DNA of 64,000 nt from assembly GCA_023249105.1 (NCBI GenBank), contig JAHFDG010000010.1, forward strand, positions 1 through 64,000. Direction: 5' to 3'. The notes beneath the pieces were generated by a model. That model worked only from the letters and a program-made list of their open reading frames with translations. It did no database searches and had not been told where the DNA came from. Both the position numbers and the translations under genes were made by a program. Below are positions 48,748-56,957 of this stretch, piece after piece (positions within the stretch are counted from its first letter, which is position 1; every line of letters starts with the position of its first letter). Origin of the DNA: Candidatus Methanoperedens sp. (GTDB lineage Archaea > Halobacteriota > Methanosarcinia > Methanosarcinales > Methanoperedenaceae).

Positions 48748-48807
48748 TACTTCTTTTTCTTTTTTTTATTATCATTTTAAAACTTTAGGAAAGTTTTATC
48801 AAAAGAA

Positions 48808-48859
48808 GGGGTATGCTGCCGCATACCCCTATACCGCATAAAGCGAGGTATCGCTTTAT
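48808..48859 (+). terminator. two tandem perfect stem-loops after the OB-fold gene
   Basis: GGGGTATGC-tgcc-GCATACCCC (48808-48829) and ATAAAGCGA-ggta-TCGCTTTAT (48838-48859) are each 9-bp perfect stems with 4-base loops, 8 bases apart. They may end the OB-fold transcript. The second overlaps CTTTATA (48854-48860), which lies about 25 bases before the attL core and could be the original rio2 TATA box. Confidence 0.6.
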
Positions 48860-48883
48860 AGTCAGCAGTATATTCAGTAATTA

Positions 48884-48896
48884 ATGCTTGAAAGTA
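48884..48896 (+). repeat. attL core of the integrative element
   Basis: ATGCTTGAAAGTA is identical to the first 13 bases of rio2 at 56088. The bases before it (TTCAGTAATTA) and the CTTTATA element at 48854-48860 look like the original leaderless promoter of rio2. Confidence 0.65.
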
Positions 48897-49169
48897 CAAA
48901 TAGCTTTCGTATTAATACTTATTTTTTAAAGATTATACAAAAAATGCCCGCTATTTATTTAAAGTAGGTAAGATAATAATCTTTACATATTTAAAAATAC
49001 ATTTATAATTATCAGATTTATGATAATGACTTATTTCGGTCATCCTCCGGGGAAGGATCGCAGGCAGAGATAGAGCCGTTTACCTCAAACTCCATGCAGT
49101 TAAAGGTTAAATGACAACATAGTTAGATATATACCCAATGTTATCATAAAGCCATAAGGGATTATAAGC
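48897..49169. other. left-end non-coding region of the element
   Basis: About 270 AT-rich bases with the GTATTAATAC arm site at 48909-48918 and no gene. A short GC-rich patch near 49043-49072 (CATCCTCCGGGG...) stands out. The TATA-like AGATATATACCC at about 49124-49135 could drive the small gene at 49170. Confidence 0.45.
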
Positions 49170-49370
49170 ATGGTATTAAGTGAAACACTATATCTTATCA
49201 TCACAGGCACAGCATCAGCAATTGCAGCATGGATAATTATTAGTGCTATCAAGTACACATATAAGATATTGAAAGAATTTACCAGCGATATTAAACAGAT
49301 AAAAAAAGATGTGAACGAACTAAAAATAAAGGTTAAAGCTCTGGAAGATAAAGCAGGTGACAAAGAATGA
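49170..49370 (+). CDS. small membrane protein with coiled-coil tail, 66 aa
   Basis: The protein has one N-terminal membrane helix (residues ~5-26, LYLIITGTASAIAAWIIISAI) followed by a lysine-rich coiled coil (FTSDIKQIKKDVNELKIKVKALEDK). No family is recognised; the shape is like virus- or plasmid-encoded holin-like or stalk proteins. It overlaps the next small gene by 4 bases (ATGA). Confidence 0.65.
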   Translation: MVLSETLYLIITGTASAIAAWIIISAIKYTYKILKEFTSDIKQIKKDVNELKIKVKALEDKAGDKE

Positions 49371-49495
49371 ATGACTATACGTATGTCGTGGCTGTAATAA
49401 TCGGCATTTTAATAGCCATCCTTTTGAAATGGAAGGACATAGCTGAAATCCTGAAATTACGCAAAGAGATTAAACAACTAAGACAAGCTTCATAA
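49367..49495 (+). CDS. small membrane protein, 42 aa
   Basis: The 42-residue frame starts at the ATGA overlap with the previous gene and reads a membrane helix (YVVAVIIGILIAILLKW) followed by a basic helix EILKLRKEIKQLRQAS. It shares the helix-plus-coiled-coil layout with its neighbour, so the two may form a hetero-oligomer. Too short for family assignment. Confidence 0.6.
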   Translation: MNDYTYVVAVIIGILIAILLKWKDIAEILKLRKEIKQLRQAS

Positions 49496-49552
49496 TCCGC
49501 AGATATTGAGAAAAGGCTTGCAGTGGCATAACTCTAAGAGATTGTTGGTTTA

Positions 49553-51226
49553 TTAAGTTACAACAACTTTTCCGCGCATACTTGGATGTATTTTACACCA
49601 GTAATCAAATGTCCCTGCTTCATCAAATGTATAGCTGAACGTCTGTCCCTGATTCAAAATTTCTGTAATGAAAGCATTGCCTGTTACGGTATGCGTTGCG
49701 CTATCTTCATTTATCCAGGTCACGGTCGTTCCTTTTGTGATTGTTATGGTTTGCGGGTTAAATGCAAAACCTCTAATCTCAATTCGGTATATGACAGGTA
49801 TCGCAGTGACCTTAATTACGGGTATGGCTGTTACTGTTGGTGTTGAAGGTTCAGGGCTTTCTGGATTCTTTGACGCTGCCTTGACGGTTACAGAGTATGT
49901 AAGTTTTAAAGGCTGAGAAGCGTCTTCATTATTGCCTGGCAAATACAACCCTGTGAACTGGAGAGTATGAGAGCCAATCAATGCTGATGTATCTGCTTTT
50001 ACTACTACTGCTATAGTCCTCTGAGTACCTGGCGGAACGCTGAACATTCCAGCCACCACACCTGCGCCTGCTGCCTCGAAACCTTGACCGTAAACACGTA
50101 TGCCGCTGGGTACAGCGATGCGTACCACCACATTCAGCATAACATCGTTTAAAGATGGATTATTCATCCCAAATTCAACAATTCCATCACTGTTAGCTGC
50201 TATCACCTCGGTTACAGGTCTTAGTGTAACAGACGGACCAACGCGGAATTTCCCTGGCGTTGCTGTTGGAGTAGGTGTTGCGGTTGCCAGAGCTATTACG
50301 GTCTGGATATCAGCCGTGGGCGAATTGACTATAATCATGGTTTTTTCTGTTGCCCATATTACAGCAAAATTTTGTGTCTGCTTGCCATTTATTGTGGAAT
50401 AATCAGTAACCTGTGTCGCTTTATGCCCGTTGAAAGAGATTTCCTTGAATGGATCGTACCTGGCATTTTTGTACCTTGCCTTATACTGAGTAATTAGAGC
50501 CTCAGGATCATCATTTTTAATTACCAGGATGTAAAAATCTTCTCCGTTATTCCTGTAAACACCTTCAGTTGCATTTATCGAAAAGCTGCCAATCTCCACA
50601 GGGGTTTCATGGATACCCATGTAGGTGAAACCTGCAGGTAAATTGGTCGTGGGGATTAAATAATCCGATCTGACAGGAGTTGCGATTGCAGTAGCGGTTG
50701 CAGTTAGAGTAGGTGTTGCGGTTGCAGTTGGAGAGGGAGTTAGTATTGAAGTCGGTAATGGTGTTGCTTTAGAAGATATGGTATTTGTTTCAGTAGGCGT
50801 ACCCATCCCAAAGACAAACGCTGCAATAATTGCAGAAATTATTATGAGTGCAAATATACCAACTATTCCATAAACAATTAATTTTCCAATGGATTTACCT
50901 GTTATTCCGTTTCGTTCATCTTCTTTTTCTCTGCGTAACCTTTCCTCTTCCTCTGTTTTGATGCCAAACTCCTGCTTAAGCACTTTCTCTGCCATCTGAT
51001 TTTTAAGACTGTCAGTTTCAACTCTATATTTTTCTTTTAACTCCTTATATTTAGCCTCGGTTATCTCACCCACTGCAAGCATTTCATCCAGTTTATCAAG
51101 AAGCTCGTTGGTTTTACCAAGTTTCTCTTTTAACTCTTCTACTGGAATATCTTTCATGCTTCTATCTATCCTCTCGGCAAACATCAATTTAACCCCATCC
51201 TGTGTTATCCTGCCACGCACTACCAC
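49553..51226 (-). CDS. membrane protein: SHOCT/coiled coil, helix, external blue-copper domain
   Basis: The 557-residue protein starts with ~110 cytoplasmic residues: a helical stretch with a SHOCT-like motif (LDKLDEMLAVGEITEAKYKELKEKY) and a charged coiled coil. One membrane helix (residues ~114-140) and a Thr/Pro/Ala-rich linker follow. The external part has an unknown alpha/beta domain (~185-310), another Pro/Thr linker, a beta-sandwich (~330-450) and a C-terminal cupredoxin (~485-557) with copper ligands in DSATHTV and DYWCKIHPSM. The protein could carry electrons on one copper while anchored in the membrane. It is the largest gene of the integrative element. The GTG start is one of several possible; an ATG lies at codon 15. 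Confidence 0.8.
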   Translation of the reverse strand: MVVRGRITQDGVKLMFAERIDRSMKDIPVEELKEKLGKTNELLDKLDEMLAVGEITEAKYKELKEKYRVETDSLKNQMAEKVLKQEFGIKTEEEERLRREKEDERNGITGKSIGKLIVYGIVGIFALIIISAIIAAFVFGMGTPTETNTISSKATPLPTSILTPSPTATATPTLTATATAIATPVRSDYLIPTTNLPAGFTYMGIHETPVEIGSFSINATEGVYRNNGEDFYILVIKNDDPEALITQYKARYKNARYDPFKEISFNGHKATQVTDYSTINGKQTQNFAVIWATEKTMIIVNSPTADIQTVIALATATPTPTATPGKFRVGPSVTLRPVTEVIAANSDGIVEFGMNNPSLNDVMLNVVVRIAVPSGIRVYGQGFEAAGAGVVAGMFSVPPGTQRTIAVVVKADTSALIGSHTLQFTGLYLPGNNEDASQPLKLTYSVTVKAASKNPESPEPSTPTVTAIPVIKVTAIPVIYRIEIRGFAFNPQTITITKGTTVTWINEDSATHTVTGNAFITEILNQGQTFSYTFDEAGTFDYWCKIHPSMRGKVVVT

Positions 51227-51274
51227 AGGTTAAGAAATCTACCTATTCCCTGAGATAATCGCTGTAATGCCGTT

Positions 51275-51610
51275 CTATGTATGTCCCTCAATATTATATT
51301 CTCTTAGGTCTTTACTCCAAAGACGTGTATAAGATAAAGTCATAGAATTAATAAACTTCTTATATTCTTTTGGATATTTATCCCTCATCACAAGATAGTC
51401 TGCCAATTTTGCAGTAGTCTCAATCATAAGTTTTTTCATTTCTTCTTCAGTAATTCTTGATAAGGACTTATCTTCAAGTAATTTTGAGTCTTTGCCTGCA
51501 TGCAAATTTTCAATAAAGCCATTCCTCAGACATTCACAAATTAAAGCATTAGCCTCTTCTCGATAAGTAGGATTCTTTCTTAGTAATTTTTGTAATTCCT
51601 TTTTATTCAT
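51275..51610 (-). CDS. hypothetical helical protein, 111 aa
   Basis: No family is recognised. The product is all-helical and charged (MNKKELQKLLRKNPTYREEANALICECLRNGF...), with DYLVMRDKYPKEYKKFINSM near the end. It overlaps the 114-aa gene upstream by 4 bases, so the two are co-translated. It belongs to the element's minus-strand block. Confidence 0.6.
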   Translation of the reverse strand: MNKKELQKLLRKNPTYREEANALICECLRNGFIENLHAGKDSKLLEDKSLSRITEEEMKKLMIETTAKLADYLVMRDKYPKEYKKFINSMTLSYTRLWSKDLREYNIEGHT

Positions 51611-51951
51611 CTAATACCACCTTTAACTAACGCCTTTGAATCTCCATCATCAATAACATCGATAAATTCCGCATCTGTAATGTCCGTATCCGGTATAATA
51701 TCCCTGGCATGTTCTTTTATGGGTGCAGGATTAGGCTTTACAATCGCTTCAATCAATTTACCGAGAGCATACACATCGAGTAGCACACCGAGTAAAGTAG
51801 GCTTCTCATGGTCTGGGATTGTGGCTGCCTTCTTATCTCTACCTCTACCCCTGCGTGATTGTCTCACATATCCGTATCTATTACGCTGCACATCACAGGC
51901 AGGGTCATGGCGTCTGCGTTCTGGTCTCATTTGGTGCTTGCGTCTTTCCAT
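51607..51951 (-). CDS. hypothetical protein with basic N-terminus, 114 aa
   Basis: The first ~40 residues are strikingly arginine-rich (MERRKHQMRPERRRH..., RQSRRGRGRDKK), suggesting nucleic-acid contact. The rest has a hydrophobic helix LLGVLLDVYALGKLIEAIV and an acidic tail. Its start overlaps the HTH gene upstream by 47 bases. No family is recognised. Confidence 0.5.
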   Translation of the reverse strand: MERRKHQMRPERRRHDPACDVQRNRYGYVRQSRRGRGRDKKAATIPDHEKPTLLGVLLDVYALGKLIEAIVKPNPAPIKEHARDIIPDTDITDAEFIDVIDDGDSKALVKGGIR

Positions 51952-52300
51952 TGTTACCCTTTATGCTTTTCGCTATCCATGCTACCAGGTCAGAAATGCC
52001 TATACCATTCGACTTAAGCAGGTCAGCAGTTAGCCCACCAATTGCAGCCCCAACCACTACTCCCATATCATAGCCTTCTTTGTATGCGTCAAGTTGCATA
52101 GATGAAAGCCTAATATCAACTTTCGCACCATTTCGTTTATTGAATATCTCTATTTTATTGTATGCAGTCCTCACCGATACCTTGAACTCATCGGCTATCT
52201 CTTGAGGACTGAACCCAGGATGAGACAAATACCAGTTCTCAAACTCTGGATATGAAAGTTTAGTCTGAATTTTGAGGGGTTTTTGTTTGAATAGTTGCAT
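51905..52300 (-). CDS. helix-turn-helix protein of the element
   Basis: The 131-residue product has a helix-turn-helix at residues ~25-55 (HPGFSPQEIADEFKVSVRTAYNKIEIFNKR). A C-terminal half with GVVVGAAIGGLTADLL may be a hydrophobic oligomerisation or membrane helix. I start at the ATG at 52300, about 27 bases after a TATA-like CTTTATAGC; an earlier TTG is unlikely. It heads the block that ends with the cupredoxin gene. Confidence 0.6.
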   Translation of the reverse strand: MQLFKQKPLKIQTKLSYPEFENWYLSHPGFSPQEIADEFKVSVRTAYNKIEIFNKRNGAKVDIRLSSMQLDAYKEGYDMGVVVGAAIGGLTADLLKSNGIGISDLVAWIAKSIKGNNGKTQAPNETRTQTP

Positions 52301-52697
52301 AACGTAAAATGTGTCATTTGAAGCTATAAAGGTTGTGCATACTTTTGACAATCGCCTGAGAATGTCATAACTATGCAAAATGGCATTATTTTCGCTTTGT
52401 TTCGCATTAATTTAACATTGATTTAGCATTGAAAAAGTATTGTACCATCATATCAATCTGGCATACCCTTCGCATATTCCCCCTTAATAATCCCCCTATG
52501 TCTATAACCTACACCCGTCCCATAGTCCCATAGGGGGAACAAAATAAAGAAATGTCCCACAAAAAAGATTTATATAGTATTTACTGATAGTCATATTTGC
52601 ATTAATATATAATTTTTCCAGCATGATTTTACGGTTTTTTATCATGAAAAAACCTCATAATCCCTCTTATATATAATTCTATGATAATGAGGTATAT
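52301..52697. other. 397-base non-coding region with hairpins in the element
   Basis: No gene is seen. It contains CCCCCTATG (52492-52500) paired with CATAGGGGG (52529-52537). Inside that is a tandem TCCCATAG repeat (52518-52533). A perfect stem-loop GGTTTTTT-n6-AAAAAACC (52633-52654) sits 45 bases past the stop of the 217-aa gene, where it could end transcription. The region is the longest gap in the element and might hold an origin or a small RNA. Confidence 0.5.
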
Positions 52698-53351
52698 TTA
52701 GAATGTTATCACCCGCTTCTCATAATCTATATTCGGCTTTCTGAATGTATACCATAAAAGTATCAGTCTTTTATCAAGAAATAACTCAAATTCATCAATC
52801 TCCTCCTTTAGCATTACTTGGATTAATTCAGTAGGTAGCGATAGATTTCTGAGTATCTCATTATAACCATAAATCTGGCATACTGGGATAAGTGTAGCGT
52901 GATACATCTTGATTTCATTGGATAACTCACCTACTCGGTTATTTACGGTCTCGGAAACACATAATTTTTTATGGTTATCATTACCACGAGATACAAAAGA
53001 ATACTCCTCTTTTCTATCCTCAAAATTCAAATATGCAGTAGCTTTTGCTGCTCCCTTAGAGCGAATCTCTTTAACTTGATGTATATATGCCTTGATATTA
53101 TCGTTAGAACGCAAAACACGAATACCCATATCTGCGGCTGCCATCTGAACAGGAACAGGACTATAATCTTTTTTATGCTTTAATTCAAGTCCTAATAAAC
53201 AGTTCTGTAATGCAGATTCTAATACCAAGGGATATTTACGAACTTTTACCCATTCTCTGGTTTGGGATTCACTCGCTCCGTCTATAAAGCGAAGGTAAGA
53301 AGTCCATTTAGTATCATCATCCTGTTGCGGTTTCTGCTGTCGCTGTTGCAT
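52698..53351 (-). CDS. hypothetical protein, 217 aa
   Basis: The product opens with a glutamine-rich stretch (MQQRQQKPQQDDD) and then mixed helices and strands (ESALQNCLLGLELKHK, YNEILRNLSLPTELIQVMLKEEIDEFELFLDKRLIL). No known domain is recognised. Its size and position as the last gene of the ribbon-helix-helix block suggest a core function of the element. Confidence 0.65.
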   Translation of the reverse strand: MQQRQQKPQQDDDTKWTSYLRFIDGASESQTREWVKVRKYPLVLESALQNCLLGLELKHKKDYSPVPVQMAAADMGIRVLRSNDNIKAYIHQVKEIRSKGAAKATAYLNFEDRKEEYSFVSRGNDNHKKLCVSETVNNRVGELSNEIKMYHATLIPVCQIYGYNEILRNLSLPTELIQVMLKEEIDEFELFLDKRLILLWYTFRKPNIDYEKRVITF

Positions 53352-53355
53352 GACA

Positions 53356-53574
53356 TCACGCCCTTATAAGTTCACATAACGCTATTTTAGATACATTACA
53401 CACACAGCAGAAAGAATTACCCAGACAACAGTAAGATGGCAAGATATGGTTGTGTGTGGTGTTGGGAAAACTATTTATACCATCAAAACCATTATTAAAA
53501 GTAGTAGGTCGAGCGTCATTCCCTCGCTGAATAGTGAGATGTTGTCGCTCCCTCTTCCATTCTTTTATTATCAT
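53356..53574 (-). CDS. small cysteine-containing protein, 72 aa
   Basis: The frame begins MIIKEWKRERQHLTIQRG at an ATG that overlaps the previous stop (ATGA) and ends 4 bases before the next gene. It has a cysteine-rich segment near the end (SYCCLGNSFCCVC). Tight packing supports translation, though the composition is odd and no family is recognised. Confidence 0.45.
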   Translation of the reverse strand: MIIKEWKRERQHLTIQRGNDARPTTFNNGFDGINSFPNTTHNHILPSYCCLGNSFCCVCNVSKIALCELIRA

Positions 53575-53783
53575 TGTATCGCCTCTTTTGCGGTATGCCC
53601 CCGAACCCATACGGCTTTACTTTCTCTTGCCTTCTGGGTTTTAATGGGTCTTAATCGCCCTTCTTTTAGGAATTGACTGCAAGTCAAAGCCGCTCCTATA
53701 ATGCAGTCCAATCCATGCCCACAACAATCAAGAGCTTTTAATCTTTCATAGAGCCTATCGGATACTTCTATCGTTTTGGTCAT
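53571..53783 (-). CDS. small antitoxin-like protein, 70 aa
   Basis: The start MTKTIEVSDRLYERLKALD resembles ribbon-helix-helix-type VapB antitoxins. The tail has several basic residues. It overlaps both neighbours by 4 bases or less, so it is part of a coupled set of small genes. No toxin is evident beside it. Confidence 0.55.
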   Translation of the reverse strand: MTKTIEVSDRLYERLKALDCCGHGLDCIIGAALTCSQFLKEGRLRPIKTQKARESKAVWVRGHTAKEAIQ

Positions 53784-53929
53784 TGTATCGCCCCAGCAGC
53801 TTCTATTATATTCTTACACGTCTGCGCCAATAGTGGATTATCTGACTTTGACCACTGCTTGACCTCTTCGCCCTGGCGCGTCATTCGGTCTGTCGCAAAG
53901 GCAATAAACCTTGAAGTGTAATCAGTCAT
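53780..53929 (-). CDS. hypothetical protein, 49 aa
   Basis: The frame MTDYTSRFIAFATDRMTRQG... ends in an ATGA overlap with the next gene. It is helical and neutral. It lies 16 bases after the ribbon-helix-helix gene. No family is recognised; the coupled arrangement supports translation. Confidence 0.5.
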   Translation of the reverse strand: MTDYTSRFIAFATDRMTRQGEEVKQWSKSDNPLLAQTCKNIIEAAGAIQ

Positions 53930-53945
53930 GGCTGGCTACCTCGGT

Positions 53946-54122
53946 TTACGCTGTGGTGCTGGCTGCGCCGGTCTCTGCTTTGGACGGCTGGACTGGCGCA
54001 TTAAGATGTTCACATATCATTTCACGGATAGCGGTTGAAAGCCCTATTGCTTTTCTATCGGCTATCTTTTTTATTTTTTCGGCTACTGCTTCAGGCAGCC
54101 TTAGCATTACAATTTTTGCCAT
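53946..54122 (-). CDS. ribbon-helix-helix DNA-binding protein, 58 aa
   Basis: The protein MAKIVMLRLPEAVAEKIKKI... with ADRKAIGLSTAIREMICEHL has the strand-helix-helix pattern of the CopG/Arc family, followed by an alanine-rich tail. It is the first gene of the minus-strand block and faces the winged-helix gene across a 51-base control region, like a pair of switch regulators. Confidence 0.75.
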   Translation of the reverse strand: MAKIVMLRLPEAVAEKIKKIADRKAIGLSTAIREMICEHLNAPVQPSKAETGAASTTA

Positions 54123-54173
54123 AGTTGTAAATTAACATATAGCTTTATATATTACACTAACGTATTAGTGAGT
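54123..54173. promoter_or_regulatory. divergent control region of the element
   Basis: The 51 bases between the ribbon-helix-helix gene (minus) and the winged-helix gene (plus) contain TTTATATATTA (about 54143-54153) and the palindrome CACTAA-cgta-TTAGTG (54155-54170), which ends three bases before the ATG at 54174. The same ACTAA-n4-TTAGT pattern precedes the AAA+ ATPase at 979. Both proteins may bind here. Confidence 0.55.
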
Positions 54174-54944
54174 ATGATTCACAACAACCATTCTAATAAA
54201 GAAAAAAACGGTACTGAAAGCGTAATTGTTGATTCTGTTCGTACACAGATTATAAACCATTTAAAAAATGGAAAACCTGCTCGATTTAAAGATATAAAAA
54301 CCGAATTGCATAAACATGATTATGTTATCAAAAGAGAATTAGATATTTTGATAAGTAGAGGATGGGTAGAAAAAACAGGCAAAGGGCATGAAACACGTTA
54401 CGCGCTTAATCTAAAAATGAAAGAGGTATCCGCTTTTTTGACTATGCTGGCAGCCACCCCAGATACAAACAGTACTTATTATCCAATTACTCTGGACTTG
54501 GCTTCTTTGGCTGATGTGCTGAGAGAAGCCATACCTACCGAAGATGAATCTATTAACAAAACGAATATTAATGAAATATTTCACATGATAGAAGCTCAAA
54601 CAGTGTTACCAAACATTGAAATCACCATAGCAGGTAATAAAATAAACAATTTTGATATTATATGTAAGTTAATAGAAAGTCAGACGGATATGATTTCTTC
54701 CGTTGTTCGTTTTGTGAGGTTCGTTAGTGAAATGAGAGGCTTTACCGTCTTGGCAAATACTATTGATTCGAAAAAAGATACAACATTTGATGAGGTTGAG
54801 AAATCGCTTACAGAAACACTTAATCAAGAATTTAAAGTAATCATTTCATGGAAACCCACACAAGAAATAAACTTCCGTGAAGTATGTAAAAATTTAAAGG
54901 AATTAGGTGTAGAATTGCCACCCCCGCTTAATGATTGTGAATAA
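54174..54944 (+). CDS. winged-helix regulator of the element
   Basis: The 256-residue protein has an N-terminal winged helix (DSVRTQIINHLKNGKPARFKDIKTELHKHDYVIKRELDILISRGWVEK...). Its long C-terminal region (~residues 85-256) is of unknown fold and may bind a ligand or partner. It is the only large gene on the plus strand of the element and ends 4 bases from the recombinase stop (convergent). The ATG at 54174 is preferred over the GTG at 54168, which lies inside the palindrome. Confidence 0.7.
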   Translation: MIHNNHSNKEKNGTESVIVDSVRTQIINHLKNGKPARFKDIKTELHKHDYVIKRELDILISRGWVEKTGKGHETRYALNLKMKEVSAFLTMLAATPDTNSTYYPITLDLASLADVLREAIPTEDESINKTNINEIFHMIEAQTVLPNIEITIAGNKINNFDIICKLIESQTDMISSVVRFVRFVSEMRGFTVLANTIDSKKDTTFDEVEKSLTETLNQEFKVIISWKPTQEINFREVCKNLKELGVELPPPLNDCE

Positions 54945-54948
54945 TTCC

Positions 54949-56034
54949 TTATGCTGTTTTTCCTTTCGCCTGCATTGCTGCCGTGATAAGCTCCATTTGT
55001 TTTTTAAGCTCTTCATAGCCTTTTCTTATGGTCTCGGTTTCGGTATCATGCTTTCCTTTCAATTCATCGTATTGTTTCTGTAATACTTCTTTGTCCGTGA
55101 ATACGGTTAATAGATGCTGGTTTTTTAGATATGCTTCGATTATCTTATTTTGGTTGCCGATGAAATAAGAACTCTCAACGCCTGGAAGCTTGTGTCCCAT
55201 CAAATACTCAACATAGGTATTATCCATATTCCCTGTAAGAACTGATTTAAAATAATGTCTAAATCGGTGCGGTGCGAAGTATCCGGCATCAAATCCTAAC
55301 TTTTGGGCATGGCGTGAAAAGTCCGTTGTAACTGCTTGTGCGGTTAATGGTCGATTCGATAAAACCTTTGTAAATACAAAATCCTCATCTTTTAGATTCG
55401 GTTTATATTCCTTGATAGCTTCAAGTGCTTCTTGACCAATTAAAAAAAAGTATCGTCTGTTAGTCTTTCCGCGTGTCATGTTCACAACAACAACACCGTT
55501 TACAATATTTTTAAGGTGCTTTCCTTTTAGTGCCCGTATCTCTGCTTGAGCTTGACCGCTTGATAATGTAGTCAGGATAAACGCCTTTAGAAACTTATTT
55601 GTGCCTGTTGAAAGAATAGCCTTGCGGATATCTTCGATTTTCTGGACTGGAATATCTAAGTATGTTTCCGTTGCGCGTTGTGTTATCCCGCTCTTCAAAT
55701 CCACTGGAATCTTATTAAAACTGTAAAAGTGTTTTATGGCTTTGATGTAATTTGCTTTTGTATAGTCTGCAAGCCCTTCTTTCGTTCTCAAATACATTAA
55801 AAAATCTTCAATCCTTTTAACATGCCTCAATTCCCAGGGCGGCACTCTGTTAATATAGTCCTCTCGCGCTTCGTTGATTAAATCTGTTGGCATCATGCCG
55901 GTGAACTTGCAGAAACATCTTAAGCCATTTCGATATGATAACTTGGTGTTTATCTTATCGAAGGACTCAAACCATTTATTAAAAATCTCATCCTTCTCTA
56001 ATTTGTCAAACAGTGGGTTTATATTTCTTGTCAT
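54949..56034 (-). CDS. tyrosine recombinase (integrase)
   Basis: The 361-residue protein has an N-terminal core-binding domain (FDKINTKLSYRNGLRCFCKF...) and a C-terminal catalytic domain with box II HRFRHYF, GHKLPG and the nucleophile tyrosine in ESSYFIG. The first catalytic arginine region reads SSGQAQAEIRAL, so the usual arginine seems replaced by glutamine, with an arginine three residues on. A ~70-residue coiled-coil tail follows. The ATG at 56034 is set by GAGGTAAT a few bases upstream; the ATG at 56058 is not used. It should recombine the ATGCTTGAAAGTA cores. Confidence 0.9.
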   Translation of the reverse strand: MTRNINPLFDKLEKDEIFNKWFESFDKINTKLSYRNGLRCFCKFTGMMPTDLINEAREDYINRVPPWELRHVKRIEDFLMYLRTKEGLADYTKANYIKAIKHFYSFNKIPVDLKSGITQRATETYLDIPVQKIEDIRKAILSTGTNKFLKAFILTTLSSGQAQAEIRALKGKHLKNIVNGVVVVNMTRGKTNRRYFFLIGQEALEAIKEYKPNLKDEDFVFTKVLSNRPLTAQAVTTDFSRHAQKLGFDAGYFAPHRFRHYFKSVLTGNMDNTYVEYLMGHKLPGVESSYFIGNQNKIIEAYLKNQHLLTVFTDKEVLQKQYDELKGKHDTETETIRKGYEELKKQMELITAAMQAKGKTA

Positions 56035-56066
56035 GGTATTACCTCTTAACTTATACATCGTATTAA

Positions 56067-56100
56067 GTATTAATACAAATCATAATTATGCTTGAAAGTA
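56067..56100. repeat. attR: arm-like site plus core in the rio2 start
   Basis: GTATTAATAC (56067-56076), 11 bases, then ATGCTTGAAAGTA (56088-56100). The core encodes the first four codons of rio2, so reading frame is kept after integration. TTATACATC (56051-56059) may act as a substitute TATA box for rio2. Confidence 0.6.
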
Positions 56101-56957
56101 TTTCGGATACGTTTATTAACACCACAAATAAAGAATTTCGGGTTCTTATTGCAATCGAGAACAAAATGAAATTCTATGAATGGGTTCCTATAGAAGAAAT
56201 TGCAAGTTTTACAAATTTTGAGCTAAAAGAAGTCAATTACCTGCTGTCAAGTCTTGCAAGAAATAAGCTTATACACAGGAAAATTCAGGCTTATGAAGGG
56301 TACAGGATATATTTTGAGGCTTATGACCTGCTGGCGCTGAATACGTTTGTGAAAAGGGGTTCTGTAAATGCATTAGGGGATGAAATCGGGGTAGGGAAGG
56401 AATCGGTTGTATATGAGGCTACAGGCGGTATCATCGACAGGCGTGTGGTCATAAAATTACACAGGGAAGGGAAGATGAGTTTTAAGAAGGTTAGAGTGAA
56501 AAGGGAACATACAGGGGAGCGAAAACACCTTTCCTGGTTGTATGTCTCGCGCCTTGGAGCAAAAAGGGAGTACGATGCCTTAAAGACCCTTTATCCCGAG
56601 GTGAGTGTTCCTGAGCCAATTGATTATAACAGGCATGCAATTGTGATGTCTGTTGCAAAAGGGCAGCAACTGGGGCATACAACGATAGATGAGCCGGAAT
56701 GGTATCTTGATGAGATTTTGAGCCAGGTAAGAAAAGCATACAGGCTCGGTATAATCCATGGGGATTTGAGTGAATTTAATATTTTCGTAAATCCCGAAGG
56801 ATGCGAACTTATCGACTGGCCGCAATACATTACAACATCTCATGCGAATGCGGTTGAGTTGCTTTACCGGGATATTGACAACGTCCTTTCTTTTTTTAAC
56901 AGGAAATACAGGATTAAAAGGGATATCCAGGAAGTGATTAACACCATAGTGACCTGA
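56088..56957 (+). CDS. rio2: RIO2-type serine/threonine protein kinase
   Basis: RIO2 acts in maturation of the small ribosomal subunit. The 289-residue protein has the N-terminal winged helix (residues ~1-85), the RIO ATP loop region GVGKESVVYEA, the catalytic loop IIHGDLSEFNIF and metal site LIDWPQY. Its length is normal. The first 13 bases are the attR core of the integrative element, so the gene's 5' flank now belongs to the element. Confidence 0.95.
   Translation: MLESISDTFINTTNKEFRVLIAIENKMKFYEWVPIEEIASFTNFELKEVNYLLSSLARNKLIHRKIQAYEGYRIYFEAYDLLALNTFVKRGSVNALGDEIGVGKESVVYEATGGIIDRRVVIKLHREGKMSFKKVRVKREHTGERKHLSWLYVSRLGAKREYDALKTLYPEVSVPEPIDYNRHAIVMSVAKGQQLGHTTIDEPEWYLDEILSQVRKAYRLGIIHGDLSEFNIFVNPEGCELIDWPQYITTSHANAVELLYRDIDNVLSFFNRKYRIKRDIQEVINTIVT

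Follow-up and report, generated by a model that had tools for sequence, protein, structure and literature searches.

We found that a 7,204-bp site-specific integrative element occupies positions 48884-56100 (counting one core) of the window, by which we mean the whole 64,000-nucleotide stretch of Candidatus Methanoperedens DNA that we analysed, and that it carries symmetric arm sites, a regulatory module and a cargo gene between the boundaries proposed in an earlier note on this DNA. What that note had missed is the target, which is the 5' end, at the start codon or the promoter, of essential protein genes. The element is very probably a small, cryptic, plasmid-like integrative element whose recombinase targets the 5' end of essential genes and whose integrase-side end comes to stand where the promoter was. 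The element has relatives in its own genus; the comparison of leuS and rio2 loci is the notable part of the result.

Boundaries and attachment sites at rio2

The 13-bp direct repeat noted earlier, ATGCTTGAAAGTA, is exact at both boundaries (Table 1). These are its only two copies in the whole 3.28-Mb genome assembly, so the repeat is not a common one and the boundaries hold. We compared the rio2 and leuS loci of 31 genomes of the same genus. In 28 of them, the window genome included, rio2 has a full-length or near-full-length start, and only the window genome is occupied at this site: none of the 27 others has an integrase upstream of rio2, and a search for integrase relics at these other rio2 loci found none. 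The same SSB gene (Ssb-like OB) directly precedes rio2 in most of these 27 relatives, and the empty site runs from this gene to rio2 across a single core copy. Clean empty sites were present in G018, G019, G029, G021 and G016. In the closest genomes (G018, G019 and G029) the alignment with the window's left flank reaches as far as the core, where one copy of ATGCTTGAAA[GA]TA leads straight into rio2, the joined arrangement that the earlier note had proposed to look for. Because left flank and rio2 meet through one core in these relatives, the element spans 48884-56100 and its core is the start of rio2. It has the terminal direct repeats with a matching empty site, and the integrase gene beside att, that mark integrative elements.

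The circular form that the element would take on excision was reconstructed by joining its ends by script. In the resulting attP, TAAGTATTAATAC stands on either side of the core, at distances of 11 and 12 bp, as two exact inverted copies of 13 bp; none of 500 shuffles gave a pair as good. Symmetric arm sites 11-12 bases inside each core had been described before as GTATTAATAC, of which the only exact copies in the window are at 48909-48918 and 56067-56076; the sites are present, but the arm is longer, at 13 bp. Integrase bound to the arms might also regulate transcription.

Table 1. Features of the element and its target, in window coordinates
Feature	Position	Strand	Match or remark
Stranded native rio2 promoter (TTTATAG...), 7.2 kb from rio2	48855-48883	+	TATA-like box, same distance in most relatives
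Left att core ATGCTTGAAAGTA	48884-48896	+	identical to 56088-56100; site empty in relatives
Left arm GTATTAATACTTA, 12 bp inside core	48909-48921	-	inverse of right arm
AbrB-type ORF remnant	49051-49112	+	also near far end of G027 element; dispersed in genus
66-aa membrane/coiled-coil ORF	49170-49370	+	
42-aa membrane ORF	49367-49495	+	
Cargo: membrane-anchored protein, C-terminal cupredoxin domain	49553-51157	-	PF00127, E 4e-11; mosaic of host sequences
Short DNA stretch	51221-51260		93% identical to G027 element (L091 14665-14706) over 42 bp
111-aa ORF	51275-51610	-	no family match
114-aa ORF	51607-51951	-	no family match
HTH protein	51905-52303	-	45% identical to that of G027 element
217-aa orphan ORF	52698-53351	-	occupies Prim-Pol slot of G027 element
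84-aa Cys-rich ORF	53356-53610	-	G027-element relative, 40% over 42 aa, E 4e-5
70-aa ORF	53571-53783	-	overlaps 49-aa ORF by 4 bp
49-aa ORF	53780-53929	-	43% relative in L097
Ribbon-helix-helix (RHH) protein, 58 aa	53946-54122	-	RHH_1 / DUF6290, weak
wHTH-like regulator	54168-54944	+	weak wHTH matches; convergent with integrase, divergent from RHH
Tyrosine recombinase (integrase), 361 aa, intact	54949-56034	-	PF00589; Arg I-aligned residue is Ala
Putative integrase/rio2 divergent promoter region, 53 bp, supplied by element	56035-56087		function suggested by leuS relics
Right arm TAAGTATTAATAC, 11 bp inside core	56064-56076	+	TATA-like sequence for integrase and rio2 (putative promoter role)
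Right att core, rio2 codons ATG CTT GAA AGT A	56088-56100	+	
rio2, target gene	56088-56957	+	Rio2_N + RIO1

Gene content and related elements

The recombinase gene that the earlier note placed next to one boundary (PF00589, E 2.5e-14) adjoins the right boundary, 53 bp from rio2; the gene stands as called, but its start at 56058 gives way to the likelier one at 56034, which has the RBS AGAGGTAAT. Within the catalytic set R-K-HxxR-H-Y, the residues K190, H256, R259, H281 and Y290 are present, and the Arg I position is Ala, in SSGQAQAE. This position is Ala or Gly in the integrase clade; Arg I is missing in most Methanosarcinales relatives and kept in the XerA-like ones. The enzyme probably works despite this loss, because three elements of the clade sit at clean sites. 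By sequence, the only solved relative found is XerA (5hxy, E 1e-7), and a structure model (pLDDT 54) gave weak matches only, to XerA and an integron integrase. Only three genomes, G027, G006 and G028, had integrases 47-54% identical over the whole alignment; those that follow in rank are ~30% identical. Single-sequence and alignment searches of viral contigs found no relatives, and among phage and plasmid records the only matches, at 25%, were psiM2 and one faecal phage, with none in plasmids.

Two further features of the earlier description are present, the two-way regulatory switch as a divergent RHH and wHTH-like pair at 53946-54944 and the chain of small overlapping genes at 53356-53929. 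Like its author, we recognised no replication, conjugation or capsid protein, here with Pfam, PHROGs, NCBIfam and PADLOC models. No provirus gene (capsid, portal, terminase or other virion gene) matched Pfam or PHROGs, which leaves an undescribed virion gene conceivable, and no relaxase or type IV secretion gene of a conjugative or mobilisable element was found. A search of the 52.3-52.7 kb gap found no clear iterons, and a search of Rfam gave no match. The 217-aa ORF has no family match and no relatives in 186 genomes of the order, and its structure model is unusable (pLDDT 33). The HTH protein is confined, within the genus, to the genomes with the window and G027 elements, and neither of these two proteins has relatives in viral contigs.

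The cargo gene is assembled from host sequences: its 3' part matches a chromosomal gene of G010 over 904 bp, with DNA identity of up to 90%, and its 5' (N-terminal) part is 82% identical at the DNA level to genes that stand in tandem at another place in the host genome. Most likely the element took it up from a host not long ago, and we can only speculate that it acts in surface electron transfer. At the far end of the element, conserved DNA at 49054-49121 was considered as a shared non-coding signal (an origin or an RNA) and rejected, as it reads as a dispersed AbrB-type coding remnant. AbrB-like short ORFs or remnants, EGSQVEIEPFTSNSMQLKVK, form a dispersed family (window 49051-49112; L099-L117), and several are preceded by the palindrome ATTATCAGATTTATGATAAT.

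By comparing leuS upstream regions we defined the ends of two related elements in the genus. One, in G027, is 11,086 bp long, lies just upstream of leuS and carries a Prim-Pol gene (core CTATCAGG; empty site in G002); the other, in G006, is 7,563 bp long, also lies just upstream of leuS, and encodes a serine resolvase besides a D5-type helicase (core CTAATAAG; site empty in G024, G004 and G030). Both follow the design of the window element, with the integrase gene reading away from the target gene and inverted arms flanking a short core. Their attP arms are arranged likewise, as 16 bp at 10/10 (0/500 shuffles as good) and 10 bp at 19/19 (10/500). The window and G027 elements are collinear through the integrase, the convergent regulator, the divergent small-gene operon, the Prim-Pol gene or the 217-aa orphan in its slot, the HTH protein, small genes, the short stretch of near-identical DNA, the cargo and the AbrB remnant. 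Integrase, HTH gene, Cys-rich gene, gene order, arms and 5' target place them in one family. The G027 Prim-Pol gene has no counterpart in the window element and no match among phage records. The idea of a new type, put forward earlier, is not supported as it stood, given these relatives in the same genus; the gene order held in common with a Prim-Pol element, the orphan in the Prim-Pol slot and the host-derived cargo weaken both it and the idea of a helper. We found no account of these elements in the open-licence Methanoperedens literature, where searches turned up papers on plasmids and Borgs.

Looser relatives of the window element occur in G028 and L097. The G028 integrase, ~50% identical, lies downstream of the 3' end of another gene, so the 5' preference is not universal among relatives. 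On its contig (L093 9248-15000, G028:C69) this related integrase lies beside an MCM helicase and AbrB-like genes; its ends were not found, and this may be a larger member of the group. L097 (VEPD01000383.1), 10 kb long, is a contig assigned to a Ruminiclostridium MAG, and possibly mis-binned; it has a small ORF and an integrase tail in common with the window element and carries a family-A DNA polymerase (PolA) gene.

Promoter regions of leuS and rio2

In close relatives, the leuS insertion position falls between the TATA box and the start codon. The native box, ACCGTTAAA..TTTTTA at 40-50 bases before ATG, is retained in 20 of the 27 leuS loci. It is absent from all seven others, which comprise the two whole elements (G027 and G006) and five relics (G001, G003, G026, G022 and G023) in which only the element end and/or a few integrase codons are left. 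An arm-like end is kept in G001, G003 and G026 and gone in G022 and G023, and all five relics have a stretch resembling the first integrase codons that reads away from leuS. The encoded peptides are NNKFIDDKFYETWTKSL in G001, NDKVYETWMKSM in G026 and RLKDDKLYEQWIESLEK* in G022, with tblastn E values of 1e-4, 2e-4 and a weak 0.012, respectively; those of G003 and G023 were aligned by eye. Each relic ends just inside the integrase gene, and the DNA beyond differs between lineages. No native leuS box was found within 20 kb in G001 or G003. A tree of leuS DNA needs at least four changes and places two replacements in ancestors, one of G001 and G003 and the other of G026, G022 and G023. Together, the census and the tree imply that elements inserted four times or more and that the promoter was replaced for good. 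The simplest reading of these sequences is that an element-derived end has long driven leuS in the relic lineages.

At rio2, a TATA-like TTTATA begins ~30-33 bases before ATG in most relatives, which suggests that the native transcript is leaderless or has a short leader. In the window this box lies at 48855-48861. Since the core consists of the rio2 start codon and first codons, insertion strands the native box 7.2 kb away and the integrase-side end replaces it. The sequence TATTAAG supplied by the element lies 27 to 21 bases before the rio2 ATG, in the native register, and the palindromic arm GTATTAATAC is also at TATA distance for the integrase gene. We infer that this element end may serve as promoter for both rio2 and the integrase.

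A dispersed repeat of ~80 bp with three hairpins (window 48779-48859) is inserted beside the native rio2 TATA box. Its predicted RNA fold has -33.6 kcal/mol (z -5.8), paired changes are visible in the hairpins, and it has no Rfam match. It has 38 matches in the window genome and up to 51 in others, occurs in 20 of 31 genomes, and is sometimes in tandem.

Proposed mechanism, alternatives and known systems

We propose that the recombinase would recombine a short core, flanked by inverted arms, with an essential protein gene at its 5' end. As the integrase gene reads away from the target, the native promoter would be left on the far side and the integrase-side end placed before the gene, which that end would then have to drive. 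At rio2 the coding sequence would be kept and a TATA-like sequence put at the native distance; excision would bring back the native state. On decay of the element the integrase-side end would be retained, because the gene now depends on it. A broader proposal is that this integrase lineage is specialised for the promoter and start-codon end of essential genes, with the arm as a two-way promoter and decay leaving permanent replacements and hence repeated rewiring; we regard it as evenly poised between right and wrong.

The leuS and rio2 ends could instead be insertion hot spots, with expression from upstream or internal promoters and relics that persist by chance. Promoters easily arise in AT-rich intergenic DNA; yet the common end point of the five relics, the lineage-specific DNA beyond it and the failure of any to regain the native box make this reading improbable. 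The lack of a recognisable replication gene, together with the orphan in the G027 Prim-Pol slot, would also fit a non-autonomous satellite that has lost its own replication gene and needs a resident or visiting helper of the same family. Helper-dependence is possible, but we do not favour it: the orphan may itself be an initiator, and the window genome (G000) has no second related integrase or Prim-Pol relative (E<=1e-10). No resident helper was found there, an extrachromosomal one could be missing from the assembly, and dependence on a helper leaves no specific sequence mark here. We think it unlikely that the element is a defective, fixed and immobile remnant of a larger virus or plasmid. 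Small size, the far-end AbrB remnant, host-derived cargo and the failure to find structural genes agree with such a remnant, but the core repeats are identical, the arms exact and the integrase intact, sister genomes G018, G019 and G029 show the empty site, and a replication-type gene is present in the G006 element, which comes close to this one in size.

Our preferred reading, a plasmid-like element that captures the promoter position, sets the window element apart from most known archaeal elements, which lie at tRNA genes, in intergenic DNA or at 3' ends, all sites that spare the host promoter. Here two housekeeping genes, rio2 and leuS, are entered from their promoter side by members of one integrase clade, and in five genomes a leftover element promoter seems to be what the gene now relies on. 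Promoter capture by archaeal mobile elements thereby becomes directly testable, and the attB/attP pairs defined here, with their arms and cores of 13 bp and 8 bp, might be used as integration tools in a group that is genetically tool-poor.

Integrases of the pTN3 type insert into tRNA genes at the 5' half, after which transcription of the tRNA starts from the integrase promoter (PMC8371274). These Thermococcales plasmids resemble the window element in the 5' target; the geometry at rio2 and the leuS relics would fit a target gene that is likewise read from the integrase side here. They differ in having tRNA targets and an integrase gene split on integration, whereas the window element uses a protein gene and its integrase is one unbroken 361-aa ORF inside the element, unlike the split genes of the suicidal SSV/pTN3 type. 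Attachment sites in archaeal protein genes are known but untested, and dyad symmetry there is an open question (PMC8371274). In Thaumarchaeota, tRNA genes account for 39 of 68 sites; another 15 are intergenic, and the remaining 14 lie where protein genes have their 3' ends (PMC6563490). Cryptic Thaumarchaeota elements share short direct repeats (13 bp in NitEve-E2), form a class without virus or conjugation genes and sometimes lie in protein genes, but none of the 68 mapped sites is listed at the 5' end of one (PMC6563490). Bacterial SXT/R391 ICEs use the 5' end of prfC (PMC4489591, PMC3715440) and so are alike in entering a conserved protein gene at that end, but are ~100-kb conjugative elements with unrelated genes. 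The XerA/XerC/pNOB8 group of archaeal integrases (PMC8371274) shares PF00589 and an intact integrase gene beside att; in contrast to that group, the first catalytic Arg position in the window clade is Ala or Gly.

Two side observations concern the integrase sequence. In box I (window 55520-55560) the canonical Arg I is missing in most of the group, as in SSGQAQAE, SSGLARTE and SSGMAKNE. The C-terminal tail GYEELKKQMELITAAM (window 54964-55023) is common to otherwise different integrases at 89-92% DNA identity, with matches at L097 961-1015 and L011 106-142, as if the tail had been swapped as a module.
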